NCBI RefSeq assembly: GCF_000332215.1
Contig: NZ_ALWB01000018.1
Location: 1-34,984 of the forward strand
DNA: 34,984 nucleotides
Direction of reading: 5' to 3'
Source of the DNA: Pseudanabaena biceps PCC 7429
GTDB lineage: Bacteria; Cyanobacteriota; Cyanobacteriia; Pseudanabaenales; Pseudanabaenaceae
The translations under genes were made by a program, and so were the position numbers. Below, one piece after another: positions 98 through 23,472 of the stretch. Under the pieces are notes generated by a model. The model was not told the origin of the DNA, made no database searches, and saw nothing but the letters and a program-made list of their open reading frames with translations. Positions within the stretch are counted from its first letter, which is position 1, and the number at the start of each line of letters is the position of its first letter.

Positions 98-2797
98 TTA
101 GATAATTTTGTTGCAAGCTGGATAAAAAATTGCGATCGCTTGTAAAGTTGGTATTTGAAAAGGTAAGTCAAGTATATGTAAATTTGCTCTCAAAAATATC
201 TCTGCTTGATCTAGTTGTTGATAGATAAATTCACCTGATTCATTTACTAGATCAGAATTTGTATTGCTAGATAGTTGGTTAAGCTGTTGGAGCAGTTGCC
301 AATCTTTTAAAAGTGCAAATTGATTAGAACGCCCTGTAATTGCCGCTATCGCCTGTCTAACATTTATCTGTTTACTAGTTACGCGATCGGCAATCCTAAA
401 AACAAACAGAGGATGCTCAAGGTTGATTAGGCAGGTAACACCCACAGGTAAATCAATTGCTTGTTGTAGTGCTTGACCAAATAGTCGGTGTCCGACTCCA
501 AGCAAGGAAGGCATTGTGGATTTATCACGACGACTGCGCTCAAAATGCATATTTTCATAACGCTTCTGGATAGCTGGTTCTACCAACCAATCATCTGGGG
601 TAATAAAAGACAGTCCTTCAGGAGTTTGGGTAATTCGTCGTTTATTAATGTGCAACATATTAATCAAAAACGGTTGTAGATCTGGCAAATCTACCTGTGG
701 AAGAAGTGGTGATGCTTGCTGAAAATCAAACTTGTCGCAACTGCCAACCATTTCGCGTACAGTAGCGATTGCATCTTTCCCCCCAAACTTTGCAGTTTTG
801 AGATCAAACCACTGGTTTAAATCTTCTTTCTTTCCATTAGCTTCGCTAAATATTTCTTGGAATAATTTCGGCGATGTCATCCCTAACACAAGTTCTAGTA
901 AATCCTCTGGTTCCGCCATTACCGCATCTAACGACTGCATAATATTCTCGATTTTCTGGTTAAGTTTATCCCAAATACGAGTTTCGACAGTATCAGGATT
1001 ACGCAGTGTAATAACTTCTACTATATGCTTTTGTCCATAGCGATTTAAACGACCCACGCGCTGATGTAAACGCATAGGATTCCATGGCAAATCGATATGA
1101 ATGAGTGAGTAACAATTCTCTTGCAAGTCAATACCTTCGCCACCTGCTTCTGTGGACACAAGAAAACGCACTTCACGTTCATTAAACTTCTTAGCAGCAT
1201 TTTCTCGCTTTTCAAATAGCGGTGTTTTATGTCCTTTAACTCCTTCTGCCTTTTCTTCTCCATTAATAAAGGTAATACATCCATCTCCATACTGAGAAAT
1301 TAAAGCTGACATGAGGAGTGATTGAGTCGCTTTGTATTCTGTAAAAAATAGAACTTGGCGATCAGCAAAACGAGTTTCTAAGATATTTAGAATTGCAGTG
1401 ATTTTTGTCTCCGTCTCTACCTTTTGAGCAGCGGTAATCAAATCCTCTAGCCAAGGTATTTCATTTTCAACAAGGCGTAAATTTTCAGTTAGTGCTAATA
1501 TTTCTTCTTCTAATTGAGATAGTTCATCGCTTGTTTGAATATCTTCTTCTTCAAACTGTGAGATGAGTGTACGGTCAATTTTCTGTTTTTGCTGCTGAGC
1601 TACTTCTAGCTTCTTTAAATTTTCTCGATTACGTTGTAAACGTCTTTCTAATGCACGTCTAATTGCGGCAACTGAACTGGAAGCAAGCTTTTGCATACAG
1701 ATAAGAATTAACATAACAGCTCGCTGATTGAAATCATCAAGTCCAGATGCGTATGCTTTACCTGTAAGAATAAAATCAGTTAGCTTTTCATAAAATTCTG
1801 CTTCAGATTCTGAATAGCTATATGTTTCAGAAGATACGGTATGAGGCGAAAAAAGCTTTTTCCCTTTCATATCAGTAACAGATTGTTTATTATTACGGAG
1901 CATCACTTGACGCAGCAATCGCATTTGGGTTTGTAGATTTATTTCTGATGAAACAGCCAGTTTTGGGTTGAATAAGTCATCACGCAATAATTTTAAAAGT
2001 GCAAAAAATTGGTAGTGTTTACCACGATGAGGTGTACCAGAAAAGAAAACTGCTGATTTGACTCTTTTAAATTCGTTGATGAGACGATCAATAAAGCTGT
2101 AACCAAGCGTCATTTCTTTTTCATCGGCATTAAGGTGATGTGCTTCATCAATAATTAATAAATCCCAAGGTTCTGCTTCAAACATCCGTTTATGGCGACC
2201 TCGGCTATCTTTCCTCAAAGTAGGCAATGAGGCAACAACTTGATGACTAGTATTCCAAAAATCGCTCTTAGGAGTGTCTGCTTCGGTTGTATATTTCGTC
2301 AGGCGAATATCAAACATCGTGCGTAGACGATACTGCCATTGCTCGACTAGCGAAGCAGGACAAAGTATGAGAATACGTTTAACTACACCTTTATTGAGCA
2401 ATGTCCAAAGAATCAAGCCTGCTTCAATAGTTTTCCCAAGTCCTACGTCATCAGCAACGAGCCATCTCGTGGGCATTTCTTGCACAACTCGGCGACATAC
2501 CCAAAGTTGGTGGGGTAATAAATCAATTCGCGCTAAGGAAAAAACACCCCATACATCATTAATCGATCTGATTGCTAATGCTTGAATTTTGGCTAATACT
2601 TCAGTCGAATCATGCCATTCTGAGGATAGAAGTGCTTCTTGTAAGGATTGTAAAAGTTTAATTTCGTGCTTAGGGCATTCATGTATATCGCCACTATCAA
2701 ACCGAACGATGACTGTCCCCTCATCGTCTAATCGAACTTCTCCTGTGCCAAAAATAGCATGAGTTACGCGATCGCCTTTTTTAAATATTCTGGTCAC
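98..2797 (-). CDS. SNF2/RapA-type superfamily II helicase
   Basis: ATP-dependent DNA translocase or remodeller of the SNF2 family, 899 aa. Residues 8-48 look like a small SH3/DUF3553-type beta domain (KKGDRV..FGTGEV). The helicase core follows: Q-motif-like LLPHQLWV (93-100), Walker A DDVGLGKT (116-123), DEAH near 214-220, motif III SGTP near 255, and the second RecA lobe with EAGGEGIDLQ and motif VI HQRVGRLNRYGQ near 580. A charged coiled-coil insert lies at roughly 385-455. About 250 residues after the core have no recognised motif. The start is GTG, two bases after the stop of the giant upstream gene, so translation is probably coupled. DISARM DrmD is also a SNF2 helicase, but no other DISARM gene is present. 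Helicase identity is firm; the system role is inferred from the neighbours. Confidence 0.9.
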   Translation of the reverse strand: MTRIFKKGDRVTHAIFGTGEVRLDDEGTVIVRFDSGDIHECPKHEIKLLQSLQEALLSSEWHDSTEVLAKIQALAIRSINDVWGVFSLARIDLLPHQLWVCRRVVQEMPTRWLVADDVGLGKTIEAGLILWTLLNKGVVKRILILCPASLVEQWQYRLRTMFDIRLTKYTTEADTPKSDFWNTSHQVVASLPTLRKDSRGRHKRMFEAEPWDLLIIDEAHHLNADEKEMTLGYSFIDRLINEFKRVKSAVFFSGTPHRGKHYQFFALLKLLRDDLFNPKLAVSSEINLQTQMRLLRQVMLRNNKQSVTDMKGKKLFSPHTVSSETYSYSESEAEFYEKLTDFILTGKAYASGLDDFNQRAVMLILICMQKLASSSVAAIRRALERRLQRNRENLKKLEVAQQQKQKIDRTLISQFEEEDIQTSDELSQLEEEILALTENLRLVENEIPWLEDLITAAQKVETETKITAILNILETRFADRQVLFFTEYKATQSLLMSALISQYGDGCITFINGEEKAEGVKGHKTPLFEKRENAAKKFNEREVRFLVSTEAGGEGIDLQENCYSLIHIDLPWNPMRLHQRVGRLNRYGQKHIVEVITLRNPDTVETRIWDKLNQKIENIMQSLDAVMAEPEDLLELVLGMTSPKLFQEIFSEANGKKEDLNQWFDLKTAKFGGKDAIATVREMVGSCDKFDFQQASPLLPQVDLPDLQPFLINMLHINKRRITQTPEGLSFITPDDWLVEPAIQKRYENMHFERSRRDKSTMPSLLGVGHRLFGQALQQAIDLPVGVTCLINLEHPLFVFRIADRVTSKQINVRQAIAAITGRSNQFALLKDWQLLQQLNQLSSNTNSDLVNESGEFIYQQLDQAEIFLRANLHILDLPFQIPTLQAIAIFYPACNKII

Positions 2798-2799
2798 TT

Positions 2800-5700
2800 T
2801 TAGTTATCCTCATCAATAAAGTCATAGTCTTCTCTAATTGGAATGCTATCTAATTGTAGATCTCTTACTCTTTCAGAGTTCCCAGAATATAATTCAAATG
2901 GGATATCAAAAGCATTTTCAAATGTAGGTGAAATATTTAGTGACAACTCATTGATTTTCTCAGCTAGGAAGCTAGAAATAAATCCAGAGTATGTAGGATT
3001 AGGGTTATCCAGCCCTGAGCATCCCAAACGGGTTAATAGTCGTCTCACGTTGTAGCGAGGGACAAAACAGTGCTGAATTACTTGATTTTTGGGATGTATT
3101 ACTCCAAGACGAACTAGCTCTCTGATTACAAAATTTAGACCAATACCTAGATTTAGTGGAGGTGCATTTAGAGGGCTACCTTGAAACGCGGGATTTATAG
3201 ATGGTGCAGTAATTTGAGCTAGATTAATAAATGTGTGTTGATCAATTGTTTTAAAGATGTGTATGTACTGATCCAGATATCTGGCAGTACGGTAAATAGA
3301 TGGAAATTTTTCCATCCAATAATTCCATTGAGTACGATCAACCTGCGGATCGATATATTGATCAAGAACATTCATCCAGTCGCTATAAAGGTTCTGTGGA
3401 TCTGGTCTTGAGAAAATATCCCACCAACCATTGTGCAGACAAAAACGGATAAAGTTTCGATGAGATTCATGCTTAGTTCTTCCCATTTTGTGGGTAAATC
3501 CAAGAAAGAATAACATCATCCAAGCACTGCGATCTTCTTGTTGAATTAGGTTACAAAAGTCATCAAACGGCTTAGGGTAAAGGCGTTGATTGTACTTGTC
3601 TATCTCCCGACTATAGTTGTCTTGCCACCATTCAGAGATTCTACGCAAGAGGTCATCAGGGTTTGCCAAAACTATATCATTAGGCTCGTAGTCGTTATTA
3701 TTAGGTATATATCCAGCTAAATTGTTACTATCACCAGTTATTTGATCCCAAGAACGTTTACCTTCGATCGCTTCATTAACTCTCAACTGATAGGCATTAA
3801 CAGTTAATATTGCCTGAATAGCTTGGTTGTTTTCCATCCAAGTTCCAATAATTGAATTTTTTGAATTTTTCAATATCTCAGTAAATAATTGTTTCTTCTC
3901 TCCCTTATTCAGATATTCAAGAACAGCATTTTGCATTTCACTAGTATTCGCACGGATTGCCCATCCAGTCATTTCTTCAGGGCTAATCGTTTCTCTTCGT
4001 TCCCGACATATTAAGAAAAAAGTTCTTCCACTATCTATGTAATTTTCGTTTAGTAAGCGATCATTAGGGGCAAATGCAGCTAATAGTTGCTCTTCTCGCT
4101 CCCTTGCGTCACAAATTAAAATATTAGATGGATTAATATATTCACCATTTTGATTGCAAAATAGTGCGGTTTGCAAAATATTTCTGATCTCCTGATATTC
4201 ACCAGATTCAGATATTTGAATTTTTCTTAAAAGCTCGTCTGTTAAAACTTCTCCAACACGCGAAGCTTGATCAGGGGTAATAGAATTTACATCTTCTACG
4301 CCAATTTCCCAAGATAAAATATTATGAAAACTGACAGTTCTAGGTGATCTATTTGATATTGAACTGCCCAATAATCTTCTAACTATTTCCCAATTGCTAG
4401 CATTTACAACTTTATTCGGTGAATAATTTGATTGAAATCCTGACCAAGATGTAATCAGTCGAAAATATTCTTCATAATCTTGCTTAGAGATAAATCCCTG
4501 AAGAACGTATTTTACATCTGGAACAGAAACTAAGCATTGATAGCTACCAGACAAGCCATTTGGCAATGCACGATGTCTAGTTATAAGTTGTCCTATACTT
4601 TGACCAAATATAGCTTTAAGAATGCTTTTTGCTGATTCGTCAAGATCTTTTTTAAGCCAATCAACTACTAACACTTCGCATATAAACTGCCAGAATTCAT
4701 AGGCACTGACATTATTATCAATTTGTAGCGCCTCAATTAAAGATGCAAGACTAGTTTGAGTCGAGTCAAAAAGATGGATTAATGCGTCTGCTAGACTTTT
4801 ACCAATATTTTGGGCAGTTGCTAAATTATTAGGAGAGTTACGATCTAAGCTAGTTCTGCCAGTGGTTATGTCAAACTTTCCATTAATAGCAAAACGCAAA
4901 CTTAATTTCTCCTTGGTAGGAGCAGTTACCCAAAAAGTTGGTATATCTTTCAGAGGGGATCTGTTATCTGATAGATTCTGAGGAAATACGATCGCAATTT
5001 CTGCATCGTCTAATTGAAAACATAGAGTATTGTGCGTTTGCCACCCTTGCTCATTATTAAGCTTGATCTGACCCACTGCAATGCGGTTACTATTGAAAAG
5101 GTTGGTTGCATTCCAGTTGATGTCCACTACCCTATCTTGAGATCGGTCAGCAAACTTGCATTTCTTAAGCGATCTAGAAAAAGCTAGTAATAGACCAAGA
5201 GAGGTCTTAAATTCATGAGTGATTTCTTGAGGGTTGGTATTCAAACTTTGAACAAAAGGTAGATCGATTAAAGTACCGCCCAATCCGTCTAAATTGGGAA
5301 CTATCTCTGTTAGGCTCTGTTTATAACCTTTTATTAATTGATAATCTTGTTCTGCTTGATTAGTTCTAGGCAAAGCCACAGGTAACAAGCCAGATTCAAT
5401 GGAAAAGCTCATATCTCCACTGATGACTTTAGGTTCATTACAGATCAGATAAACTGACTTAAATCCTAATCCAAATTTTCCAGTTACATTCTCTGACTTA
5501 TCAGAGATGTTGAAAGATAACATCTTTAACAGGTCACGATCAAAACCGCGATCGCTAAAATCATTATTAGCTCCAGCATTTGGTAAATTAAATACATTTA
5601 TAGGTCTTCCCCAGTGCATGATTCTCAGCCCTTGAAGACTTATTTCAAATACAAAAGTTCTCTTTCGATCATCTAGTGCATTGTTTGTCATTCCTAGTAA

Positions 5701-8307
5701 CTCTGTTAACGCATCATCAGCGTTTTGAAATAGTTCAAAGGGAATACTATTTACATCATAACCATATTGTCCGCAACCAATTTTGCAACGAATTGATTCC
5801 AAAACATGATGACTGACATCTAGATTATTAGTCACTAGATTCTCAATCTCAGTAATAGTTTTACTAATTTCTTCTTGCTTAATAGACTGTCTTGCTCTTA
5901 AAGCAGGTGAGCTTTGCCTTTCTTCGGCAGTGAGTTGATAGCGTAGCTCTTCCCATCTCTTCAATTTTTGCTTGAGTTCGTCGTTTCTATTTTTAACGCC
6001 TAAGGTATCCAGAGTATGACGTAAATCTTCAAGAATATGCTTTCTAGTTACCTCAATATCTAATTGCCTAGATGTACGAATATCTTCCCAAACTTCTTCA
6101 ATGCGCTGACTAGAGCCAGTGATGTCACCAAATTTTTTGACTGATCTAAATAAGATATCCTTCAACTGATGTGAGTTGCTATTAGTTACGGTAAGTTGTC
6201 TAAGAGAAATTTGAGTAGTTGCATAATTTAAGTTTCCAATAAATATATGTTCTAGATTTTCGCTCGAAACTCTCATTGCACTTATACAATTATCTAGTAA
6301 ATTTTGCACCTCAATAGTTTGATTGCTATCAGATACAATCCTAATTACAAAGCGTCTACTTTTAACATCAGTACCAAAGACTAATCTATCCCTTAATTCT
6401 TCAAAATCTCTCCTTTGAAGGTAACCTTGTGCAAGTTGTCTAGTCTGTACATCAGAGCCAGTTAATAGACATACAAATAAACCTATAAGTTCAGAAGAAA
6501 TATAGGGAAGCCAAGATCGGAAGTATTTTTCTAAAATATTTGCGTTCTGATTTGTTGGAAAATTTAAGTTGTTTTTGGAATTAGAAGAACTTACTGCTAA
6601 TATACCTGATGTCGTTTTTGGGTTGATTTTAGAGTCCAAATAAGAAGCAAGGATATCTCTCTGTTCTGAGCTTAAAATAGATTCTAGAATAATGCCAGTA
6701 AATTGCTTTCCATCGCATAGCTTAGAAGGATTTTCCCATTGACCCAAAGAGTTTAATAGTTTGATATTAGGCAATATTTTGTCACGAAATTGAGGATACT
6801 TACAAGCTAAAGTTAAGTATTGATTAAAAATCCTAACTGACCTATTTGAAGCAGATGCATGATTATTAGTAATCCAATTTAATACGTTTGTTAAAACATT
6901 AGTATTACTAATTGGTTTTAATATTTCGGGTAAAAAATATTCCTTGAATTGCTCTTCAGACATTCTATTGGTTAGAGTCAAAATTGGAAACTCTTCAAAT
7001 CCATCTAAAATCCCACGAAAATCTCTAATATCCAAATTATCTTGAATCAAATCACCTATCCAATAGTTATCAACTAAACCAATTACTACTCCAATTTGTT
7101 GTAATGCAGCTTCGCCAGAAGTGAATAGGGTTTTTAATCTAGAATCATTTAGACAAACATCAATATCATTCTGTAAGAGTCTGGGTGTAACATAATCGCA
7201 AATATCACGTATTTCCTTAGGAGATAATATTTCCGATATTTCTCTGTTTAATTCAGGATAATTTATAACCTGCTGAGGGGTTACAGGTCTATTATCAATA
7301 TCAATAAGCCATTTAGAATTTTGTAGTTTACCAAAATTAGGAGTGGAGACTGTTTGACTTCTATCTTGAAGTATTCTTAGCGTATCTAGAATGAGAGGAC
7401 AATTATTAGAAACATTAGGAAAGTAAGCTTGATCTAGCAAAAAGCTCAAGATGTTGTTCTCAAACCAATCAGTGCATATATCCCTTAAATTTTTCTGAGT
7501 TCTAAGTGCATTTCTAACGCCATCAGCAAGCATTGATAAAGTCACTAGATTACTACTTCTATCAATACTAAGAATACGCTCTAAGCCTTCTTCCAAAATC
7601 TGTAATTCTTTGACAGAGCAGAAAACAACATTTGTAGGAGCAACTACTTCACCTGACTGCAAAGGGAGCCATGAGGTTGATCTCAAGATTCTCTTTTGTT
7701 CATCCGTGGCTTGAGGAAAGAGCCTTAGTAGTATTTCGGCATAATGTGCTGGGTTAGGCTGTTTAACAATAAAATTAATAGCACTTTGTGGAGTCCATTC
7801 TGGAATCCAATCAGGTCTTTGGGTATTTTGAACTAGTATTACTACTTCTGCTAAAAGCGGATCTAAGTCAAAGTTAGGATTGACTCTATAAGTATGCTCA
7901 TTAATTTGAGTAAAGCTACCCGTAGTTGTTTCATGCAACTTCAGACTGCGCCATAGATCTTGTCGATTGAAACTACTAACCTGTCTTAGTAGTTCATCTC
8001 TTTCTTGAGCGGATAAAAGACGAGGATTAATCAGAGTTGGCTGAATTCTGTCAAGAATATTGCTTAATATTAGTTCTTGAATCCTTAAACTCGCCCATTG
8101 TCCTTTAGGTATGGTATCTGCAATTTTTGAATCTAAAATACGCCAAGTTTCAATAACTGTTCTTGCAATTGCAACCCACAAGTTGCTTTGCTCTGATTCT
8201 GAGACAATATACAGAATCTCTTGACTATCGTAGCGATCGCGATCGCCATGTAATAAAAATCTGATTTCGTAAAAATTTGTATGTAAACCAATGTTGATAG
8301 TATTCAT
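2800..8307 (-). CDS. Giant 1835-aa protein with central GHKL (Hsp90/sacsin-like) ATPase domain
   Basis: I do not recognise a named family for the full length. About 800 N-terminal residues have no motif I can name. A charged helical segment follows (about 770-835), then a GHKL ATPase domain with N-box FELFQNADDA near 855-865 and the glycine lid TGKFGLGFKSVY near 943-954. The remaining roughly 850 residues are unassigned. The N-box Glu/Asn/Asp and GxGxG-type lid suggest real ATP binding, as in Hsp90, MutL and sacsin. The ATPase domain is central rather than N-terminal, which is unusual for this superfamily. The gene starts two bases after the 706-aa GHKL gene and ends two bases before the helicase, so the three probably form one unit. 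HIP1 sites are sparser and the gene is more AT-rich than the brx genes, which suggests a separate origin. Role in defence is inferred from context. Confidence 0.75.
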   Translation of the reverse strand: MNTINIGLHTNFYEIRFLLHGDRDRYDSQEILYIVSESEQSNLWVAIARTVIETWRILDSKIADTIPKGQWASLRIQELILSNILDRIQPTLINPRLLSAQERDELLRQVSSFNRQDLWRSLKLHETTTGSFTQINEHTYRVNPNFDLDPLLAEVVILVQNTQRPDWIPEWTPQSAINFIVKQPNPAHYAEILLRLFPQATDEQKRILRSTSWLPLQSGEVVAPTNVVFCSVKELQILEEGLERILSIDRSSNLVTLSMLADGVRNALRTQKNLRDICTDWFENNILSFLLDQAYFPNVSNNCPLILDTLRILQDRSQTVSTPNFGKLQNSKWLIDIDNRPVTPQQVINYPELNREISEILSPKEIRDICDYVTPRLLQNDIDVCLNDSRLKTLFTSGEAALQQIGVVIGLVDNYWIGDLIQDNLDIRDFRGILDGFEEFPILTLTNRMSEEQFKEYFLPEILKPISNTNVLTNVLNWITNNHASASNRSVRIFNQYLTLACKYPQFRDKILPNIKLLNSLGQWENPSKLCDGKQFTGIILESILSSEQRDILASYLDSKINPKTTSGILAVSSSNSKNNLNFPTNQNANILEKYFRSWLPYISSELIGLFVCLLTGSDVQTRQLAQGYLQRRDFEELRDRLVFGTDVKSRRFVIRIVSDSNQTIEVQNLLDNCISAMRVSSENLEHIFIGNLNYATTQISLRQLTVTNSNSHQLKDILFRSVKKFGDITGSSQRIEEVWEDIRTSRQLDIEVTRKHILEDLRHTLDTLGVKNRNDELKQKLKRWEELRYQLTAEERQSSPALRARQSIKQEEISKTITEIENLVTNNLDVSHHVLESIRCKIGCGQYGYDVNSIPFELFQNADDALTELLGMTNNALDDRKRTFVFEISLQGLRIMHWGRPINVFNLPNAGANNDFSDRGFDRDLLKMLSFNISDKSENVTGKFGLGFKSVYLICNEPKVISGDMSFSIESGLLPVALPRTNQAEQDYQLIKGYKQSLTEIVPNLDGLGGTLIDLPFVQSLNTNPQEITHEFKTSLGLLLAFSRSLKKCKFADRSQDRVVDINWNATNLFNSNRIAVGQIKLNNEQGWQTHNTLCFQLDDAEIAIVFPQNLSDNRSPLKDIPTFWVTAPTKEKLSLRFAINGKFDITTGRTSLDRNSPNNLATAQNIGKSLADALIHLFDSTQTSLASLIEALQIDNNVSAYEFWQFICEVLVVDWLKKDLDESAKSILKAIFGQSIGQLITRHRALPNGLSGSYQCLVSVPDVKYVLQGFISKQDYEEYFRLITSWSGFQSNYSPNKVVNASNWEIVRRLLGSSISNRSPRTVSFHNILSWEIGVEDVNSITPDQASRVGEVLTDELLRKIQISESGEYQEIRNILQTALFCNQNGEYINPSNILICDAREREEQLLAAFAPNDRLLNENYIDSGRTFFLICRERRETISPEEMTGWAIRANTSEMQNAVLEYLNKGEKKQLFTEILKNSKNSIIGTWMENNQAIQAILTVNAYQLRVNEAIEGKRSWDQITGDSNNLAGYIPNNNDYEPNDIVLANPDDLLRRISEWWQDNYSREIDKYNQRLYPKPFDDFCNLIQQEDRSAWMMLFFLGFTHKMGRTKHESHRNFIRFCLHNGWWDIFSRPDPQNLYSDWMNVLDQYIDPQVDRTQWNYWMEKFPSIYRTARYLDQYIHIFKTIDQHTFINLAQITAPSINPAFQGSPLNAPPLNLGIGLNFVIRELVRLGVIHPKNQVIQHCFVPRYNVRRLLTRLGCSGLDNPNPTYSGFISSFLAEKINELSLNISPTFENAFDIPFELYSGNSERVRDLQLDSIPIREDYDFIDEDN

Positions 8308-8309
8308 AG

Positions 8310-10430
8310 TTAGATTAATTTCCTTAGTAAGTTTTGACGATCGCCTAGACTTGATAGCTTAGGTTTTAGCCTAAGAAAGTCTAGACAGGAACTTCGATTA
8401 CATTCTCTAATCGTTTCCTCAAAAAGGATGAGAGCTATGCGTTGCTCAACGAGAAAAATTTGTGTATCGCTTAATGCCTCAGCCAGAGCAGTCGCCCAGT
8501 CTTGAGAGTAGTAAGTAGTATCTATAAATATTCTCTTTTCCTGTTGAGCATTTTCTAGCTCTCTAATAGATAGGTAACGGTAATTAGTACTTGTATTTTG
8601 CTGGATTACTTTAGCTTTAATAAATTGAGCATCTTGAGCATCTTTATTTATTGCCAAAATTAATTGTTTTTTATCAGAAACAGATTCTAAAACACTAACT
8701 ATGAAATTAAAAACTTCTTGTTTGTCTAAATCTGACATTGAATTTAGATCAAGTTGACAATCAATTAATTGTGAAATTTCCTGCGATCGCCAATGTCCCC
8801 ATAAGTGACTATCAAAAAGATTAGATTTTTTTGGATCGATCAAAAAGTAATCTTCTGCATACTTACTCAACTGTGGTAATGTTTGCCAAATTTGCTTAGA
8901 AGGAATAGTAGGTAAAGAACGCATTGGCTTAGATCTATGATCGACTAAATGCCAACGATTTCCAGATCGATGAATACGATAGACGATCGCTGAATTCAGG
9001 CAAAGACCTGATTTAAAGATTTGGCTCTTATACAAGGAAGACTGCGCGATCGCCGAACATATTAACGATATTTCCTCTTCAGGTATTTGTAAATTCTCAA
9101 TAAAATTCCATAACGCACTTAAAGCTAGTGGTAACGTGCCTTTTGCAACTAAAAACTCGTTCCATTGTCTTGCGATTGGTGACTCTACCTCTTCTATTCC
9201 ATCACGAACTCCTTTTAGGAACTCAATGTAGCGCCGCCCAGAGTCAAGAAAAAAATAGCCATGCAGTAAAAACGTATAGTCCCACTTGCTATCAATGTCG
9301 ATTTGTTCAAACTCAGCTATATCTCTCTCATCGTCTGCAACGGGCAAAAAGACTGCCCATTGAATTAACAATTTCCCTGTTTGAGCGGAAGATTTTGTGC
9401 GTGAAATGATCGCAGAACAATGAGAATCAGGCTTGTCTGGAGTATTTTTAGGGTTGCCTTTATCATCCTCTGTAAGTCTTTGTGGCCAATTTGGAGAGTC
9501 GTAAATCGTTTTTACTAAATTATTTTCTAGCTTAATCTCTTTGCCGAGATACTGAACAAAATCTTGATTGTCAGATCTATTTACCCCTCCATCAAAAGAT
9601 CTCACTATGTTTGGCTCTAGAGAATCCCGATCGCTTGATTCACTATCATGACGCTGAGATACACTAAACTGCTTTTCCAGTCTACCTGAGTCAGATGCAA
9701 TCCAGTAATTCACCGTGTTTAGCGATCGCAGCATAGGCAGTAGAGTCGCAACTTTTACATCTAGCCTTTCTGAAAGGTGATGGCTTATAGAATCAATATT
9801 GGGATAGGTATTTGACAAAATCCAGCGATCGCGATCTGACTCTTGACGCAAAGGTATCCATAAAACAAAAAACTGCTGATCTGCTTGAATTAGCCCTTGC
9901 GCCTGTAAGTAATCCGTTAAATATTGTCTGTCTGTTGACGATATTCCCTCCCAATCTGGGCGTTGGATATCCTGCCAGACTGGATTCATTGGGTCAACTT
10001 GCTTTGCCCAAGGATTAACGAAGGCTTGATACTCTTTTTCTTTACTCGACTTTGCTAAGTAGAAAAATGCTTCACAAAAATGGAAGATACTCTTCTGTCC
10101 TAAGCCAAACTTACCAACCTTACTGGTATCCGATGCATTAAGATCCGCACCAAACCAAAGTATAGCGCGTTCATCTTTATCTGAAAAATCTCCATTATTG
10201 ATAAAAACTAGAGCTGGTCTTTTTAGCAGTGGGTGACTGATATCAGGGTTAAGACTTTTTGATTTGAGATTTTGCACTAGGGCGATATGCAATGTACTTG
10301 CCCCCCCATCGTTAGCATTCTGAATAATTTCTTTAATAACGGGAAATCCTTCTTTGTACCTCTCTTTGAGCAAAGTTTGAATTTGATTAATAATTGCGAT
10401 CGAAGGAGTCGAAAATCCCGTGTATGACAT
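8310..10430 (-). CDS. GHKL (sacsin/Hsp90-like) ATPase, 706 aa
   Basis: The N-terminus carries a clear GHKL nucleotide-binding fold: N-box IKEIIQNANDGGAS (Glu34, Asn38, Asp41), VFINNGDF at 75-82 (G1 region), and the ATP lid VGKFGLGQKSIFHF at 105-118. This matches the sacsin N-terminal ATPase-like group, in which the nucleotide site lies within the first 120 residues. The remaining 580 residues have no motif I can name. It is the first gene of the three-gene run and is followed after two bases by a second, much larger GHKL protein. Two different GHKL ATPases in tandem suggest a heteromeric clamp or chaperone-like assembly, as GHKL domains usually dimerise on ATP; that is inference. Iyer, Abhiman and Aravind described GHKL ATPases (paraMORC) in restriction-modification operons with helicases, a loose parallel. 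Confidence 0.8.
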   Translation of the reverse strand: MSYTGFSTPSIAIINQIQTLLKERYKEGFPVIKEIIQNANDGGASTLHIALVQNLKSKSLNPDISHPLLKRPALVFINNGDFSDKDERAILWFGADLNASDTSKVGKFGLGQKSIFHFCEAFFYLAKSSKEKEYQAFVNPWAKQVDPMNPVWQDIQRPDWEGISSTDRQYLTDYLQAQGLIQADQQFFVLWIPLRQESDRDRWILSNTYPNIDSISHHLSERLDVKVATLLPMLRSLNTVNYWIASDSGRLEKQFSVSQRHDSESSDRDSLEPNIVRSFDGGVNRSDNQDFVQYLGKEIKLENNLVKTIYDSPNWPQRLTEDDKGNPKNTPDKPDSHCSAIISRTKSSAQTGKLLIQWAVFLPVADDERDIAEFEQIDIDSKWDYTFLLHGYFFLDSGRRYIEFLKGVRDGIEEVESPIARQWNEFLVAKGTLPLALSALWNFIENLQIPEEEISLICSAIAQSSLYKSQIFKSGLCLNSAIVYRIHRSGNRWHLVDHRSKPMRSLPTIPSKQIWQTLPQLSKYAEDYFLIDPKKSNLFDSHLWGHWRSQEISQLIDCQLDLNSMSDLDKQEVFNFIVSVLESVSDKKQLILAINKDAQDAQFIKAKVIQQNTSTNYRYLSIRELENAQQEKRIFIDTTYYSQDWATALAEALSDTQIFLVEQRIALILFEETIRECNRSSCLDFLRLKPKLSSLGDRQNLLRKLI

Positions 10431-10823: not shown

Positions 10824-10827
10824 CTAA
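10681..10827 (+). pseudogene. N-terminal remnant of a helicase-like gene (48 codons)
   Basis: ATG-initiated plus-strand frame, 48 residues, ending ..QLVQVEYYP and a TAA. The segment VGMLATVRNRKDLITVLE followed by LVQVEY resembles the small beta-rich N-terminus (VRNR...V.VEY) that I associate with large SNF2-type helicases of defence islands. That match is from memory and is inference. The frame stops just where such proteins would continue, and its stop overlaps the brxHI stop codon (10824-10826) on the other strand. This looks like a deletion or recombination junction that removed the rest of a helicase gene. Alternatively it is a chance short ORF. Confidence 0.45.
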
Positions 10828-12965
10828 TTGGTAAAACGCTTTAAGAAACTGCTAGCACTTTCCCAATTAAGTAGATAACGTTCAATAGTCTCAAGAGCAT
10901 AAGCTTCGGGGAGTAGAGGTTGAAACTTACTAAAGCGATAGAGAGGAAGTTGAGCAAGGATATTGGAACGATGTGCTTCGCTTTGCCAATCGAAAGACGA
11001 TCGCAATCTATCTAAAGCCGATCGCAATAACTGAACACTCACATCAGAACCTTCGATCCCAATTTTAAAATTATCAGCAATTACTTTCCATTCAGGGCGG
11101 AGATCGGCAAGGAGATATTTGATCGTGTAATTAATTTGTCCCCCTGCAAATGTCCACCATGTAACGCGATCGCCATCATCGATCGCCGTGAAAGATTGCT
11201 GACTGAGTAGTACACCCAGATCTTCACGTTTTTCTGTGATTGCATAACGAGATTGAGCGTCGATGTAGGGATAGTCGATGTCGGTAGTGAGGATCTCGTA
11301 AATTTTTTGACAGAGTTCATAGCTGAGGATTTGCGGCGAAAAACTATTCCAGTTTGGCTTTTTACCTTTTGGAGAGAGAACTACGCGAATTGAGCGTTCC
11401 TTGTGATCGATCGCTTCAACTAGCCAAGCCTTGCCACCTAAGAGGAAAGAACTCATACTTGGAACTAATTTATCGGCAAAGTCTTGTTCTAGAGAACCAA
11501 CGGTATAACCTGCTGCGGTCTTGACTTTATAGAGAACGGGGCTACTGAATACGGCATAGAGTTCCATACAGTTTTTGCGCCCAAATATCTTCTCGGCTCT
11601 TTCACCGATGGATAGTAAGCCGCCCGACTGAAAAAAATAACCTTCCCTAATGCCATGCTGAATCAAGATTTGATATTCTGTCTCCGCGATGCCCTGAAAA
11701 TCAGGAATTAGAGATAATTGCTCCCAAGCAAGTTCGGGACTAATCGCTCCAAATTGCAAGGTGAGCGCTAGTAATTGATGGACTAAAACTGTCCATGTGC
11801 GGTTATGACACTTTACAGACTCCACCCAGCCCGATCGTGCTAATTCAACAATAGCGATCGCTTGTAAAACTGTCTCAATATTTTCACAATAAAAGGTGGT
11901 ATTTGCTGCCTTACCTGCGCGTCTGCCTGTGCGTCCTAATCTTTGTAAAAATGATGACACAGTACTAGGAGCATTGGCTTGGAGAACAAGATCAAGATCG
12001 CCAATATCAATTCCTAATTCGAGGGTACTCGTACAGAGAATGCAAGCATTCATTCCCTTTTGAAAATTCTCTTCGGCGATTTCGCGTTCAATGCGGGAGA
12101 CAGAACTATGATGCACAAATACATCTGTGCCGCGATCGCGCATTCGTTCCGCGACATCTTCCGCAAGCGCTCGACTTTGACAAAAGAATAGGCTTTTATT
12201 ACCTTGTGCTTTGCGACTAGCTTCACGGGCGATCGCGCCGATCTCATTACGCTGTAGGATTGCAATTTCACGCTTAGCAGGAATTTTTGGCGGATCAATC
12301 ACGATTCTTTGGCGCTGTGATGAGCCTTGCATCCAGTTGAGAATTTGCTCTGGATTGCCCACAGTGGCGCTCAGTCCAACTCGCTGCACATCGCACTTTT
12401 GATTAGTAGGTAAATCTTGATTTGCGGCGGTAATCAGCCGCTCTAGAACTGAAAGTAAATGTGTCCCGCGATCACTACCTGCGAGGGCATGGATTTCATC
12501 AATAATTACAGCACGGAGATCGCCAAATAGTCTCACATGAGGGACTTTGGCTGATAGCAGCATCACTTCGAGAGATTCGGGAGTGGTGAGTAGAACTTCG
12601 GCAGGTTCTTTGAGAAAGGCTTGCTTATCTTTGCCTTTAATATCGCCATGCCATACAAAACTACGCAAACCAACCATTTCGGTATAGGTAGCAAAGCGAT
12701 TGCATTGATTATTGAGCAGGGCTTTGATCGGCGCAATATAGAGTATGCCTACGCCCTGTGATTCATGCTCGATTAGATTGGCTAATAGAGGAAATATGGC
12801 GGCTTCAGTTTTCCCCCCTGCGGTGGGAGCAAGCACGATCGCATTTTTACCATCAAGGATTGCTTGACCTGCAAGTTCTTGGACTGGACGCAAGGATGAC
12901 CAACCGAGGCGATCGGCAATCGCCTGTTGTAAGCGGGGCGGAAATCTGGCAAAAGTGGAACGCAT
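10824..12965 (-). CDS. brxHI: BREX type 6 Lhr-like helicase BrxHI
   Basis: Superfamily II DNA helicase of the Lhr-like group, 713 aa, last gene of the BREX operon. Visible motifs are the Q-region RPVQ (27-30), Walker A APTAGGKTE (46-54), DEIH near 155, SAT (GLSATVGNP) near 200, and motif VI LGRTGRRAGKA near 345; a DUF1998-type tail is not apparent. Length suits BrxHI of type 2 and type 6 BREX. It starts two bases after the brxD stop, so the two are coupled. The brxD plus brxHI pair distinguishes types 2 and 6 from type 1, which uses brxL. Its stop codon lies at the junction with the remnant helicase frame, so its last residues could have been altered. Confidence 0.88.
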   Translation of the reverse strand: MRSTFARFPPRLQQAIADRLGWSSLRPVQELAGQAILDGKNAIVLAPTAGGKTEAAIFPLLANLIEHESQGVGILYIAPIKALLNNQCNRFATYTEMVGLRSFVWHGDIKGKDKQAFLKEPAEVLLTTPESLEVMLLSAKVPHVRLFGDLRAVIIDEIHALAGSDRGTHLLSVLERLITAANQDLPTNQKCDVQRVGLSATVGNPEQILNWMQGSSQRQRIVIDPPKIPAKREIAILQRNEIGAIAREASRKAQGNKSLFFCQSRALAEDVAERMRDRGTDVFVHHSSVSRIEREIAEENFQKGMNACILCTSTLELGIDIGDLDLVLQANAPSTVSSFLQRLGRTGRRAGKAANTTFYCENIETVLQAIAIVELARSGWVESVKCHNRTWTVLVHQLLALTLQFGAISPELAWEQLSLIPDFQGIAETEYQILIQHGIREGYFFQSGGLLSIGERAEKIFGRKNCMELYAVFSSPVLYKVKTAAGYTVGSLEQDFADKLVPSMSSFLLGGKAWLVEAIDHKERSIRVVLSPKGKKPNWNSFSPQILSYELCQKIYEILTTDIDYPYIDAQSRYAITEKREDLGVLLSQQSFTAIDDGDRVTWWTFAGGQINYTIKYLLADLRPEWKVIADNFKIGIEGSDVSVQLLRSALDRLRSSFDWQSEAHRSNILAQLPLYRFSKFQPLLPEAYALETIERYLLNWESASSFLKRFTN

Positions 12966-12967
12966 GA

Positions 12968-14287
12968 TTAAAATTCAACAACGGCGTAAACTTCATTTTC
13001 TTCTGGTTCAGGATCGCAATAGGGCAAGCCTGACTTGATGCGGAGCTCATAGTCATTGAGGGTATCTTCGGGCAGAGATAAGGCACTGATCGGCTCGAAG
13101 TCAGGGTTATCAATAACCAAATCCAGAAGATTCACATATTGCCGTAAGAATTGACGTGGCACTACGCCCACATCGCCTTTAAAGCCTTTAGTTACTTCTG
13201 CAATCAGGCGATCGATAAATTCAAGGGTGATTTTTCGTTCCAAATGAATGCGATCGCCAGCGTTAAAAAGTTCACGCAGTCTGAGGGCAACTTCCTTTAA
13301 ACGAATAGCATCAAAGGGGGTGAGTTCCAATTGGGGCTGACGCGGACTACTAAAGCCGCTATAGGTTTCAAACTTGATGCGATCGTGAAGAGGCGTTAGT
13401 CCCGCAATGCCACGTTTTGTATCAAAAAAGTCGGGCGTACCTGTAAAAATCCATAGCAACCCATGAAAGCGATCGGCGGCATCACAGATTTGTCTAATGC
13501 CATTTAAGGATTTACCGCGCACATCTTGACGCATTCGTAAAATTGTTTCCGCTTCATCAATGACGATCGCCCAGCCCTTGTAACCTGCCGCCTTGACGAT
13601 CTGCAAAATGCCAAGTAAATAGTCGAGGGCTTCACGGCTGCCAATATCGCCTTTAATCCCTGCAATTTTTTTGGCGCTTGCCGCGACATTTTCACTGCCT
13701 GATAGCCAAGAAATGAGGGCGCTGGCTTCGGCAAAGTTTCCCTGTTGCTTGAGGGTAAAGATGGTTCGCAATACTCGTGTCATGTCTTCAGGAACTTGCC
13801 CCCCTGTCATGGAAGCAAGTTCTTCATCGAGGCGATCGCGCACGGCATCATCAAAATTAGGATCGTCTTCATCCTTGCCCCCAGCGATCAGCATATCTTC
13901 AACTCTCGCAATCCAGCGATCGAGAATATCGCCTAGTGCCCCCCTTGGGCATACATTTGTGCCAAGCTCCTGTACGGCTTTGCGATAGACATCATCAAAT
14001 TTATGGAAGTGCAAATCATTATCGGAAACGACAATAAAACTAGTGGCAAAGCCACGATCGCGGGCTTCGAGGGTGGCAAGGCGAGACATAAAGGTTTTAC
14101 CGCAACCATAACCACCTCGCAAAAACTTAAACACGCCTTCACCATCAGCAGCGAGTTCGAGTTGGCGTTGGATTTCCTTACGAGATCGATCTATGCCGAC
14201 AGCAAATGCTTCTAGTCCCCGTTCTGGCACAACTCCCGATCGCAACTTTTCAAAAACATGTTCGGTATCCTTAGCACTCAAATTCAT
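12968..14287 (-). CDS. brxD: BREX ATP-binding protein BrxD
   Basis: P-loop ATPase of 439 aa. Walker A GGYGCGKTF is at 58-66, and the Walker B strand GWAIVIDEAETIL lies near 240-252, with an Asp-Glu pair as in AAA+-like enzymes. The sequence LRGGYGCGKTF..RLA with an N-terminal R.GVVPERGL segment is typical of BrxD (formerly DUF2791) from type 2 and type 6 BREX. Its precise biochemical role in BREX is not established; it may assemble with the BrxHI helicase encoded next to it. It is separated from pglZ by 148 bp filled by an inverted-repeat element. The ATG start gives the expected family N-terminus. Confidence 0.9.
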   Translation of the reverse strand: MNLSAKDTEHVFEKLRSGVVPERGLEAFAVGIDRSRKEIQRQLELAADGEGVFKFLRGGYGCGKTFMSRLATLEARDRGFATSFIVVSDNDLHFHKFDDVYRKAVQELGTNVCPRGALGDILDRWIARVEDMLIAGGKDEDDPNFDDAVRDRLDEELASMTGGQVPEDMTRVLRTIFTLKQQGNFAEASALISWLSGSENVAASAKKIAGIKGDIGSREALDYLLGILQIVKAAGYKGWAIVIDEAETILRMRQDVRGKSLNGIRQICDAADRFHGLLWIFTGTPDFFDTKRGIAGLTPLHDRIKFETYSGFSSPRQPQLELTPFDAIRLKEVALRLRELFNAGDRIHLERKITLEFIDRLIAEVTKGFKGDVGVVPRQFLRQYVNLLDLVIDNPDFEPISALSLPEDTLNDYELRIKSGLPYCDPEPEENEVYAVVEF

Positions 14288-14332
14288 AGCTACACAGTTT
14301 TATTTTTTAACTGACGTTACATGGAAGATTAT

Positions 14333-14437
14333 AAGACCCTCACCCCTAGCCCCTCTCCCAAAAAAGGAGAGGGGAACAAGAAATTAGTCTTACTCCCCCT
14401 CGCCCTTAATGGGAGAGGGGGCTGGGGGGTGAGGGTT
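14333..14437. repeat. GC-rich interspersed inverted repeat, copy 1
   Basis: Outer arms start CCCTCACCCCTAGCCCC and end GGGGGCTGGGGGGTGAGGG. They enclose two small hairpins (CCCCTCTCC/GGAGAGGGG and CCCCTCGCCC/GGGAGAGGGG). The element lies between brxD and pglZ and its right arm reaches the pglZ stop codon (14436-14438). The same architecture recurs inside pglX at 19314-19419. It is a REP/MITE-like cyanobacterial repeat and could stabilise or attenuate the operon mRNA. No U-tract follows it on the minus strand, so intrinsic termination is doubtful. Confidence 0.85.
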
Positions 14438-17078
14438 ATCTCTTAATATACCGCTTGCCAGAAGCGACATTTTCAACTTGAACCCCAAAGGGGATCTGCT
14501 TGACAAATTCCTCAAACTTGAGGGAAAAGCTCCGCGCTTTGCGTGATGAGCCAAGCATTTGCACAAGTTCAGTTTCCACGATCGCGCCATGTTTTTCTAG
14601 ATGTTCAAATACCTTGATGATCGCAGGATCATCAAAATTATCTTGCCAGCGATCGCTTGTAGATAAACTTGCTACAGGCTCAATAATAACCATATCTATA
14701 GCGATCGCTTCCGTAATAGTACTCGGATCTTGAAGAGAATCTTGAATCTGTGTTTGCGATTTAACACGCTTAGTTTTAACAGATGATCGCTTAGTGACTG
14801 ATTGCTTAGTGACGGTCAGGACAGGAATTACTCGCTCCTGTAAACTATTACCTCCATGAGCAAAAGAAGCATTACTCAGTTTAGTTCTACCCTTAAAAAT
14901 GGCAGTATCATTCCGAAATAGTAGATAGCCCTCTTGACCTTCATAATTTAGCGATCGCAAAGGCACGGATACACAATCAGCCTCGCGGCGGTAATCATCA
15001 AGACGCACATAGCGGCGGGTGGCGGTGGCATATTCCACTTCTTTGACGGTGTGATCAAGGAGCATGAAGCCATGATCGGCGGTGAGGATGCAGGTATGAA
15101 TCCCAATCTTTTGGAGATTATTAATCGCTGCTTTCAGTTGTTGAATCCAAGTGGTGAAGGCAATCAGCCCCATATTTGCTTCACCCGCATCATCGATTTC
15201 TCGACTATGGATTACGAGCAAGGCGGCATTTTTAGATAGACTTCCTAAAGTCTCACTCGTTGATTGCGCGACCTGTTGCAGCGAGAGACTAGATAACGAA
15301 TGTCGATCACGACTAGAACTAAATGTGCGATCGCCGATCACCCGCGCCCGACTATCAGGATCTTTGACAGTATATTCTCCCGCCTTAATCCCTTTACTAA
15401 AATCTTTACCATCGGGTAAGCGGATTTTGCCATCACTCGACACAGGGGCGATCGCATTCATGCCCATCGCCGTAATCGTTGGTAGTTCGGCATAGCAACC
15501 AATCAGGTTAGTCTGGAAATCCTCTTTATTTAATTTGTTCATCAGTTCCATTGCCATTTCATAGCGAAAGGCATCAACTAAGAAAATAGCAACGCGATCA
15601 CCTTGCTCAACTTGTCCTAGAGAAGGATGGCGCTTCGCGCCATCCTTCTCTGGAGTAGTAATTAATGGCAGACAGTAACGCTCAAAGATATAGCGCTGTT
15701 GTAATTCTTCTTCAGGTAGGAACCCAACCTGATCGCAAAGTTTGGCAAAACCCCTCGCCAAATCATCAGCCCAGTCACGATAAAGCTGCCGCAAAAAATT
15801 AGTCACCGTCACCATTGACGCAAATTGTGGCAAGTTACTATTTGACATTTGCAACCGTAGTTGCTCAAAGCGACGATGGTAATAATCCACAATCCAAGCT
15901 TTTTGGGTATAGATATCAAGTGCTTCTCGTAGGGTTTCCACTCCGTTTAAGACATGATTTTGTTGAGCAATTATCTGTCCAAACTGTGCTGCTATTAACA
16001 CCCAACCCCAAAGGCGGCGTTTTTGTGAATCCTGCTGTATCCATAGGGAAGGAGCATTAATCCGCGATCGCCCCCAGATGCTCGCCTGTTGCCAATTTTG
16101 AGTGAGCAAGGCTTGAATAGATGCATTGAGCATCACCCGATCTTCAGTGGCGAAGGTGTCAATCTTACCGAGGTCATTGGGAGAGATCTGGTCAAATTCA
16201 GGCTTGATTTTTGCTTCTACTTCTTCAGAGATCGCCATGTAGCGGATGGGATAGCGATCGCGTAGATGATTAATTAGATTTTGACATTGCGCTTGTAAAG
16301 GTTTTGGGAGCGATCGCAATGGCTGTAATTGTGGTAAATAGGGCGATCGGGTGAGGTCGTTGGTATATTCCACACACATCAACCAAGCGACAAAGGCAAG
16401 TTCTAGACGATCTATATCTACAGGATCATCTTTAAGGAAGAACTGCAAAAAGGTAATATCCATCCCTGTATGAATATAGAGATGTTCGATGAGAATATTT
16501 AGCTCAGATGCGCTATGGATTTTGGTGCGGAGATTGCTATTGTGATCGAGCAAACCATCGAGAATCCATTGATGGTCTAATCCTGCCAAATAACTACGGA
16601 TATTACCAGTTTTAGAATTATGAGAATTATGTCGATTTAATTCCTGATCTAGCCAAGTTTCCGCCCCTGCTAGAGTGAGGTCGGGAGTTTTGAGCAAATC
16701 AGCGATCGCATCGGGGGCGACTTTACCCGTGACCGCCTCACGCACAAGAGTATTCAGGGCTTTTTCGTAGCGTTTACCAGCCCGATATAGTTCTAATAGT
16801 GGTGTTTGCTTAACCGTATTAGTGTTGTGGTTTGGCAAATGAATTAATAACGGTTCAGGATCGAGTCCATTGCCATAGTTTTCTAGTTGCAGCAAAATTT
16901 CCAGATAGCTACCCCGAAAACCCACCACAGGAAAATCAAAATCACCTGTTTGATGACGAGTGATCAGGCGATCGACAAATTCGGTATAGCGACTATCGGC
17001 ATCGAGCCAAAGGACAATTCCCTGACGGCGGATGGTTTCTTTAATGTCGTTTTCAAGATAACTGGCGATCGCGGACAT
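14436..17078 (-). CDS. pglZ: BREX alkaline phosphatase-superfamily protein PglZ
   Basis: Core BREX protein, 880 aa, present in all BREX types. The alkaline phosphatase-like domain in the C-terminal half shows the metal-site segment VAIFLVDAFRYEMAMELM near 495-512 and LTADHGFMLLD near 662-672, the Asp/His pattern of PglZ domains. The N-terminal half contains the start-proximal motif VLWLDADSRYTEFV (22-35). The C-terminal 100 residues are low-complexity and basic, then end in a small winged-helix-like segment. A perfect hairpin repeat is translated in frame at residues 477-487 (see 15619-15651). The ATG start has no clear Shine-Dalgarno sequence. The gene is separated from pglX by a plus-strand cassette, so pglZ-brxD-brxHI may have its own promoter upstream of 17078. 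Confidence 0.9.
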   Translation of the reverse strand: MSAIASYLENDIKETIRRQGIVLWLDADSRYTEFVDRLITRHQTGDFDFPVVGFRGSYLEILLQLENYGNGLDPEPLLIHLPNHNTNTVKQTPLLELYRAGKRYEKALNTLVREAVTGKVAPDAIADLLKTPDLTLAGAETWLDQELNRHNSHNSKTGNIRSYLAGLDHQWILDGLLDHNSNLRTKIHSASELNILIEHLYIHTGMDITFLQFFLKDDPVDIDRLELAFVAWLMCVEYTNDLTRSPYLPQLQPLRSLPKPLQAQCQNLINHLRDRYPIRYMAISEEVEAKIKPEFDQISPNDLGKIDTFATEDRVMLNASIQALLTQNWQQASIWGRSRINAPSLWIQQDSQKRRLWGWVLIAAQFGQIIAQQNHVLNGVETLREALDIYTQKAWIVDYYHRRFEQLRLQMSNSNLPQFASMVTVTNFLRQLYRDWADDLARGFAKLCDQVGFLPEEELQQRYIFERYCLPLITTPEKDGAKRHPSLGQVEQGDRVAIFLVDAFRYEMAMELMNKLNKEDFQTNLIGCYAELPTITAMGMNAIAPVSSDGKIRLPDGKDFSKGIKAGEYTVKDPDSRARVIGDRTFSSSRDRHSLSSLSLQQVAQSTSETLGSLSKNAALLVIHSREIDDAGEANMGLIAFTTWIQQLKAAINNLQKIGIHTCILTADHGFMLLDHTVKEVEYATATRRYVRLDDYRREADCVSVPLRSLNYEGQEGYLLFRNDTAIFKGRTKLSNASFAHGGNSLQERVIPVLTVTKQSVTKRSSVKTKRVKSQTQIQDSLQDPSTITEAIAIDMVIIEPVASLSTSDRWQDNFDDPAIIKVFEHLEKHGAIVETELVQMLGSSRKARSFSLKFEEFVKQIPFGVQVENVASGKRYIKR
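15619..15651. repeat. Perfect hairpin repeat inside pglZ
   Basis: A 33-base perfect inverted repeat: 15-base arms (AGAGAAGGATGGCGC) around the loop TTC. It is an exact 11-codon in-frame addition and encodes EKDGAKRHPSL just before the metal-site strand. The core GGCGC-GAA-GCGCC (either strand) is shared with the hairpin at 27164-27194, while the outer arms differ but still pair perfectly. It belongs to the same class of small palindromic repeats. Confidence 0.85.
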
Positions 17079-17163
17079 AGAAAATGAGCAATATTTTTGC
17101 TTTGTGCGAAAATGATCGTAACAGTTTATTCACGGCTTACTCATTTATTACGGGAGAAAAGTC

Positions 17164-17394
17164 ATGGAAATTACCAAAACACAGTTTAAGACGCAGTTTG
17201 AGAGCATTTTAGAAAGCTTAAATCAAAATAATGAGGACATTATTATTATTGATAATGGCAAGCCGCTATTTAAGGTTTCTAAATACCAGAAATCAGTCAG
17301 CACTAGGGAACTATTTGCACCCCTGCGAGGAAAGGTGAAATATTATGAGGATTTAATGACTCCAACTTGGGATGAATGGAGCGAAGTATTATAG
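17164..17394 (+). CDS. Phd/YefM-like antitoxin, apparently without its toxin
   Basis: Small 76-aa protein starting MEITKTQFKTQF with IIIIDNGKPLFKVSKY at 26-41, the beta-strand pattern of Phd/YefM DNA-binding antitoxins. The C-terminal part (LFAPLRGKVKYYEDLMTPTWDEW) is the toxin-binding-type tail seen with VapC/PIN-domain partners. A good ribosome binding site (GGGAG, seven bases before the ATG) supports the start. No PIN or RelE toxin follows; xisH begins 18 bases after the stop instead. It may be an orphan antitoxin, or it may regulate the xisHI pair. It is divergent from pglZ with an 85-bp gap that must hold both promoters. Confidence 0.7.
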   Translation: MEITKTQFKTQFESILESLNQNNEDIIIIDNGKPLFKVSKYQKSVSTRELFAPLRGKVKYYEDLMTPTWDEWSEVL

Positions 17395-17412
17395 TCGTTA
17401 AGGATAAAGGAC

Positions 17413-18158: not shown

Positions 18159-18176
18159 AGAAAAAAAACGAATCGT

Positions 18177-18344
18177 AGGGGCATAGCATTCCTGCGACTA
18201 TCTTGGCTTGTGGCAACCATTTTTAAACAGGAATGCTTTGCCCTCTTTGATGTTGAAAGGAGAATCACGCATAAAGAGGGTAGAACATTTGCAAATGGAG
18301 ATTGTCGCGAGGAGTTGCGAGATTGGGGCGCAAATGCTCTACCC
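18177..18344. repeat. Chain of three abutting inverted repeats between xisI and pglX
   Basis: Three hairpins follow each other and share their boundary bases. First, 18177-18194 pairs with 18228-18244 (core GCATTCCTG/CAGGAATGC). Second, 18241-18248 pairs with 18273-18280 (CCCTCTTT/AAAGAGGG). Third, 18278-18292 pairs with 18330-18344 (GGGTAGAACATTTGC against GCAAATGCTCTACCC, one mismatch). The last arm supplies the pglX stop codon at 18339-18341. Sited between convergent genes, the chain could act as a two-way transcript end, though there is no strong U-tract. Confidence 0.75.
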
Positions 18345-23390: not shown

Positions 23391-23442
23391 AGGTTTGGCT
23401 CCCAAGATAAAATCAAAATAAAATGATGAGTTGTCAGTTTTA

Positions 23443-23471: not shown

Positions 23472-23472
23472 T

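Follow-up and report, generated by a model that had tools for sequence, protein, structure and literature searches.

Joint exchange of a GHKL ATPase tail and its SNF2 partner in a conserved three-gene unit from Pseudanabaena biceps

A contig of Pseudanabaena biceps PCC 7429 (NZ_ALWB01000018.1, positions 1 to 34,984; this whole stretch is termed the window) carries a trio of adjoining genes, which encode two GHKL ATPases (GHKL1 and GHKL2) and an SNF2-family protein (SNF2). The unit is conserved and its motifs are intact, and among its relatives the C-terminal tail of GHKL2 and the SNF2 gene are swapped together. This joint swap is the main result and is new here. The trio has no name, is widely spread and is probably anti-phage. 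On balance, it appears to be a self-contained immune module, in which the GHKL pair forms a switch that gates a C-terminal output, here SNF2 via a helical domain at the end of GHKL2 (domain X).

Joint exchange of the GHKL2 tail and SNF2

A GHKL2 search seeded by GHKL motif patterns returned 159 relatives from 84,980 species genomes; the best 80 of the 159, together with three named plasmid loci, make up the 83 loci used here. A full-length SNF2 orthologue adjoins GHKL2 in 64 of the 83 loci (same strand in 63/64), with gaps mostly between -67 and +70 bases, and GHKL1 and GHKL2 form a single fused polypeptide in 46 of the 64. Domain X is found at the GHKL2 end in all 64 SNF2 loci and is absent in all 19 loci without SNF2. 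W1596, R1729, E1730 and D1801 are its invariant residues.

The 19 loci without SNF2 comprise eight with DarT tails, eight with NOV_C tails that score above the Pfam cut-off (24–50 bits), two with NOV_C-like tails and one in which the contig ends before the tail. Pfam scans of three DarT tails gave 82.9, 92.7 and 92.3 bits, and the other five were assigned from the same sequence. A Macro-domain gene lies close to all eight DarT loci; ten loci have such a gene overall, none of them with SNF2. The two NOV_C-like tails are those of the gammaproteobacterial fused pairs L097 and L098; their last 200 aa are nuclease-like with an EVK motif, and NOV_C reaches 17.3 bits in L097, the one scanned, below the cut-off. 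NOV_C, or DUF3883, has been termed a restriction endonuclease (REase) domain (PMC3710099).

On a FastTree tree of the GHKL2 core, from which the tail columns were left out, at least four tail changes are required, three of them by NOV_C alone. The NOV_C locus of Oscillatoria (L055) is nested within the DarT clade with a support of 99–100. Two further NOV_C loci, L069 (15508–16223) and L087 (15538–16253), hold an SNF2 remnant (a 72-amino acid (aa) open reading frame, ORF) and a truncated Macro gene downstream; 64 residues of the L069 remnant share 89% identity with the SNF2 of the window. These fragments are leftovers of what the slot contained earlier.

Loci of this type occur in about 12 phyla overall, counted from the tree and plasmid records: Cyanobacteriota, Pseudomonadota, Chloroflexota, Planctomycetota, Acidobacteriota, Thermodesulfobacteriota, Myxococcota, Actinomycetota, Bacteroidota, Bacillota, Kiritimatiellota and Deinococcota. 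In the reverse search, the SNF2 orthologue (E<1e-150) was detected in 3 of 373 cyanobacterial genomes, which are the same three that hold this type of GHKL2, and all five plasmid records with SNF2 also contain GHKL2. The trio is sporadic (3 of 26 same-genus genomes) and is present on conjugative and mega-plasmids. The co-occurrence elsewhere on which the preliminary description of this locus had staked its proposal is thus borne out: the three genes do form a conserved unit, which is rare and patchy. A phage or viral origin was considered and rejected, since no relative was found in phages or in viral contigs (one scan of viral contigs).

Twice on the Deinococcus wulumuqiensis plasmid pDrdI (L040, 12607–23727; L130, 2628–12622), a very large ORF is directly followed by an annotated SNF2/DEAD helicase, and in L040 a NucS_C-like nuclease gene (27.8 bits) comes directly after. 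The fused GHKL genes on a plasmid of Synechocystis sp. B12 (L042, 12499–19596) are apparently broken, with IS5 elements at the expected place of SNF2. In a distant version on the Sphingomonas plasmid pC33 (L043, 6789–16672), the large protein ahead of SNF2 is divided in another way, into 1607 and 799 aa.

The two GHKL ATPases and the SNF2 protein

GHKL1 scores 69.9 bits against Pfam SACS (cut-off 32.8) and 67 against NCBIfam P_loop_sacsin (cut-off 50). Its nearest solved structures by sequence are those of sacsin SR1 (E 8e-15), with MORC2 reached only at E 0.05 in a comparison that contained no paraMORC profile. The central domain of GHKL2 is weak by sequence, with 31.3 bits for SACS and 38.9 bits for P_loop_sacsin, each below the cut-off. 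The second GHKL domain that the preliminary description had placed in the middle of this 1835-aa protein is nevertheless clear in the predicted structure (Z about 14), which has a GHKL plus transducer fold and matches the GyrB 43K fragment (Z 14.9 over 279 residues, 5.1 Å), the Hsp90 protein Hsc82 (Z 14.8) and sacsin SR1 (Z 14.3; 5v46, root-mean-square deviation 3.5).

All 80 GHKL1 sequences (E34 and N38) and all 85 GHKL2 sequences keep the Glu and Asn of the N-box. G1 is atypical, with the glycines conserved but the usual Asp replaced by Asn in 76 of 80 GHKL1 and by His in 81 of 85 GHKL2 sequences. The earlier view that the GHKL1 motifs are intact therefore holds for the N-box but is not exact for G1. 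Both proteins bear the marks of the GHKL superfamily (Bergerat fold, N-box Glu/Asn and G1/G2 glycines), the G1 Asp excepted. The N-terminal half of GHKL2 was modelled with a pLDDT of mostly 80–90 and has a low-confidence stretch at about residues 229–348. The median identity of relatives to the window proteins is 51% for SNF2, 29% for GHKL1 and 23% for the GHKL2 N-terminal half; such fast divergence would fit GHKL proteins that face changing targets.

The fold search with domain X gave no Foldseek match at E<0.001 and no VIA match with Z above 4.7, which is a weak test of domain X, and a new fold is not claimed. The preliminary description had also raised the possibility of nuclease folds hidden in GHKL2. 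This candidate was rejected for the C-terminal part, where the model is all helical, no nuclease is recognised and no conserved metal-binding set is present, and the N-terminal half was hardly probed by the fold search. An HEPN-like R-x5-H in domain X (R1610 and H1616) was likewise discarded as a conserved active site, with the Arg kept in 84% and the His in 71%.

SNF2 matches Pfam SNF2-rel_dom (73 bits) and Helicase_C (55 bits), and all 66 aligned sequences share its residues in Walker A, DEAH and motif VI. It falls in the RapA/BrxHII/DrmD group (BrxHI/BrxHII model, 265 bits; DrmD model PDLC02621, 268 bits), with RapA as the closest solved relative. An active REase at its C-terminal end was considered and rejected: D691, D703, D804 and D832 are conserved, yet no ExK-type motif accompanies them. 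Related helicases bear an inactive REase after the motor (PMC12839542). Since no catalytic motif is conserved and the REase of these related helicases is inactive, a motor that acts without cutting is the best guess. The trio contains no methyltransferase or recognised nuclease, as had been noted before.

A proposed switch with an exchangeable output

GHKL domains close on each other upon ATP binding. Because the two GHKL proteins are fused in most relatives and keep the catalytic Glu and the Mg-binding Asn of the N-box, and because closing of GHKL domains is known, GHKL1 and GHKL2 may act together as a two-headed ATP switch. We infer a defence role along the following lines. An infection cue, either protein or DNA, would be sensed by the pair through its long helical regions, which evolve fast, and ATP-driven closure would then free or position the output held at the GHKL2 C-terminus. 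SNF2 would be this output in the window and in most lineages, presumably docked through domain X, and it would translocate on invading DNA, stripping or blocking replication and transcription complexes. Cyanobacterial relatives have DarT, a DNA ADP-ribosylating domain, or the NOV_C predicted nuclease in this slot, and the Macro-domain gene is a likely antidote to DarT.

More specifically, we propose as a tentative reading that infection is recognised by the fast-evolving sacsin/Hsp90-type pair, which then unlocks one of three interchangeable DNA-directed outputs: DarT, NOV_C, or SNF2 docked through a new helical adaptor. In the window, the output might then be a motor free of nuclease, with the GHKL pair as a portable sensor whose role could be comparable to that of STAND or NACHT sensors. 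A tested precedent is VcSduA (GHKL-Shedu), whose GHKL domain is proposed to control a C-terminal effector and in which GHKL mutants and nuclease mutants each abolish defence (PMC12137116).

The order of action could also be reversed, as the preliminary description had pictured it: SNF2 would drive or load a GHKL pair that closes on DNA. The invader would then be halted by the closed clamp, SMC- or MutL-like, with the GHKL pair as the effector. The GHKL proteins MutL and GyrB do act on DNA. MORC/paraMORC GHKL proteins with superfamily II helicases have been suggested to form DNA loops (PMC2292703). The fold of GHKL2 has a transducer-like part, and SNF2 is the best conserved subunit. However, cyanobacterial relatives retain the GHKL pair in the absence of SNF2 and domain X, with DarT or NOV_C at the same place, which argues that the pair is in general independent of a translocase. 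GHKL1 is also nearest to sacsin by sequence, and GHKL2 is about equally near to GyrB, Hsp90 and sacsin by structure, which does not favour a DNA clamp. We regard the loaded clamp as unlikely, and less likely than the order in which the pair controls SNF2; since relatives swap SNF2 and domain X for DarT or NOV_C, SNF2 is most likely the output and not the loader.

Several points weigh against the switch-and-output reading. The swap demonstrates a shared slot, not that SNF2 is an effector, and domain X with SNF2 could be a separate arm for sensing or loading, one that is dispensable in the versions with DarT or NOV_C. Domain X is without recognised relatives, and the atypical G1 residues (Asn and His) put ATP hydrolysis at both predicted GHKL sites in doubt. 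The 83 loci are not a census. The defence genes near them (BREX, type I and IIG restriction-modification, McrBC, PDC-S68 and true DrmD) are raw occurrences. In the papers searched, a scope outside which many subscription titles lie, the trio is not described, and no experiment that shows phage protection by it was found.

Sacsin is best known from a human ataxia gene. If the proposed switch is true, sacsin-type Hsp90-like ATPases also serve bacterial immunity, as sensor-switches whose outputs can be exchanged, and the natural swaps make the sensing and acting parts directly testable.

Genomic setting and comparison with named systems

The three ORFs are all on the minus strand with gaps of two bases and contain no internal stops, which bears out the preliminary description of a 706-aa and an 1835-aa GHKL protein followed by an SNF2 helicase. 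The coordinates are summarized in Table 1. The closest named relatives of the three genes are from Pseudanabaena. The window begins at base 1 of its contig; in another Pseudanabaena the gene beyond SNF2 is convergent, and the operon therefore ends with SNF2.

Table 1. Coordinates of the trio, its domains and the adjoining operon in the window
Feature	Position	Strand	Details
SNF2-family helicase-like ATPase	98..2797	-	899 aa, RapA/BrxHII/DrmD-like group
SNF2 Walker A, DVGLGKT	2429..2449	-	
GHKL2	2800..8307	-	1835 aa, central GHKL domain
C-terminal helical domain X of GHKL2 (aa 1550-1815)	2863..3660	-	pLDDT >90 over most
GHKL + transducer-like domain of GHKL2 (aa 840-1190)	4738..5790	-	E858..N862, H898-W-G-R, GKFGLGFKS
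GHKL2 N-terminal half (aa 1-800)	5908..8307	-	mostly helical, repeat-like, short strands; fast evolving
GHKL1	8310..10430	-	706-aa sacsin-type GHKL ATPase; first gene of trio
GHKL domain of GHKL1 (aa 13-250)	9681..10394	-	N-box E34..N38; N78-N-G80 replacing DxG; lid/G2 GKFGLGQKS
BREX type 6 operon, outside trio	10824..29281	-	brxHI, brxD, pglZ, pglX, brxC, brxB, brxA, brxE

The adjoining BREX type 6 system noted earlier is confirmed: BREX_PglZ_6 reaches 767 bits (cut-off 400), and BrxE, A, B, C, PglX, PglZ, BrxD and BrxHI are all detected. These genes lie upstream of the trio on the same strand, and 393 bases separate brxHI from the trio. A terminator scan of the brxHI–GHKL1 interval found none and promoter matches were at chance level; transcription separate from BREX is thus not shown. 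The trio might be viewed as an accessory that modulates BREX (type 6 here) or backs it up. Besides the position of the window trio behind brxHI, this is suggested by Desmonostoc muscorum (L057, 7564–15025), where pglX and pglZ of a BREX operon flank a GHKL1–GHKL2 pair with a NOV_C tail, and by L094 and L108, where the trio is found among BREX genes. But the trio is not a constant part of BREX operons: BREX genes are near only a few of the 83 loci, the flanks of most others, including two of the same genus, have none, and the main text of a BREX survey (PMC12839542) mentions neither GHKL nor sacsin. BREX proximity is a local feature, most trio loci being without BREX, and we consider the accessory role very unlikely.

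Other small gene pairs were observed in this region. An XisH/XisI pair (17413–18158, plus strand; PF08814 188.7 bits, PF08869 149.4 bits) lies between pglX and pglZ on the strand opposite to BREX, and in another Pseudanabaena (L038, 4458–5194) a related pair adjoins a helicase-like ORF of 1476 aa. Between brxC and pglX, a TacA-type antitoxin gene (PF08681, 89.4 bits) and a GNAT acetyltransferase gene (22564–23456, minus strand) are likely a TacAT toxin-antitoxin pair. ParA and ParB-like genes stand beside BREX (29430–31375, plus strand), which suggests a contig that is itself a plasmid or derives from one.

The carriage of the trio on plasmids, together with the ParA/ParB-like genes that flank the BREX operon of the window, would also suit a function that is not antiviral, such as plasmid or chromosome maintenance or an anti-plasmid module, and the chaperone activity of sacsin and Hsp90 would suit a stress chaperone with a translocase. 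The sporadic distribution, the toxin and nuclease tails and the defence neighbours suit conflict better, and anti-plasmid action would still count as defence. Such a function appears quite improbable to us.

A partial or variant DISARM, with SNF2 as DrmD and the GHKL proteins as accessory genes, was suggested by the PADLOC model PDLC02634, which is labelled DrmD and matches SNF2 over its full length with 1356 bits. True DrmD-like genes are also near about 9–12 of the 83 loci. However, SNF2 does not reach the NCBIfam DrmD equivalogs (291.1 vs 610 and 191.3 vs 950 bits), and genuine DrmD (PDLC02621) is encoded by another gene, which sometimes lies nearby. No DrmA, DrmB or DrmC was found in the window up to the contig end, so the trio lacks them as first reported, and nearly all other loci also lack the DISARM core, which was not recurrent among 85 neighbours scanned from 49 trio loci. 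A DrmB-like gene is near 2 of the 64 trio loci (L039, with its DISARM genes on the opposite strand, and L041), and DrmA and DrmC are near one. Plasmid C of Trichormus variabilis has the only trio locus found next to a complete DISARM core (drmA, a DUF1998 (DrmB-like) gene and drmC), and there the DISARM genes occupy the opposite strand. The DISARM reading is largely refuted already and is the least probable of those considered here.

PDLC02634 thus describes the SNF2 of the trio under the label DrmD, and PDLC02572 is labelled DrmA with a DrmD-like SNF2 as its best match (1751 bits); both labels may mislead DISARM calls. If the present assignment is true, the DrmD label of one SNF2 subfamily is corrected, a label that may inflate DISARM counts. 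RefSeq names the trio proteins as hypothetical or helicase. The statement that the trio matches no named system therefore stands for the whole trio and needs amending for SNF2, which PADLOC files as DrmD and NCBIfam rejects; none of the named systems in the databases and papers that were searched has all three families.

Partial likenesses connect the trio to several known systems. Tiamat is a single-protein system. Its PADLOC model TmtA describes a large GHKL protein, to which the trio has weak matches that are mostly confined to the GHKL region and its surroundings (43.8 bits or less), and no full-length TmtA similarity was found. DrmD of DISARM and the BrxHII/RapA-group SNF2 proteins belong to the same helicase group as the trio SNF2, which forms a separate subfamily and, unlike them, accompanies the GHKL pair in every locus seen. 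DarTG shares the DarT domain and the Macro gene with the sister version of the trio family; it is a two-gene toxin-antitoxin system, whereas DarT is the tail of a putative GHKL switch in the sister loci and was not found in GHKL2 of the window. Human sacsin SR1 (PDB 5v44–5v47) is the closest solved relative of GHKL1 by sequence and a fold match to GHKL2, but human sacsin is a eukaryotic chaperone-like protein, unlike the bacterial trio.

The closest kinds are the paraMORC/MORC-helicase systems and GHKL-Shedu (VcSduA). In the former, GHKL genes form operons with superfamily II helicases, one group of which is SWI2/SNF2, in predicted defence loci that usually include nuclease and methylase genes (PMC2292703). 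The trio has neither of the latter, and it differs by its two sacsin-type GHKL domains and its swapped output slot. In VcSduA (GHKL-Shedu/paraMORC3), the GHKL domain is proposed to control a C-terminal effector, and both activities are needed for defence (PMC12137116). VcSduA is one short protein with a DUF4263 nuclease, and no Pfam nuclease family, the Shedu-type DUF4263 included, is among the matches of the three proteins described here; the trio instead consists of two long GHKL proteins and a separate SNF2.

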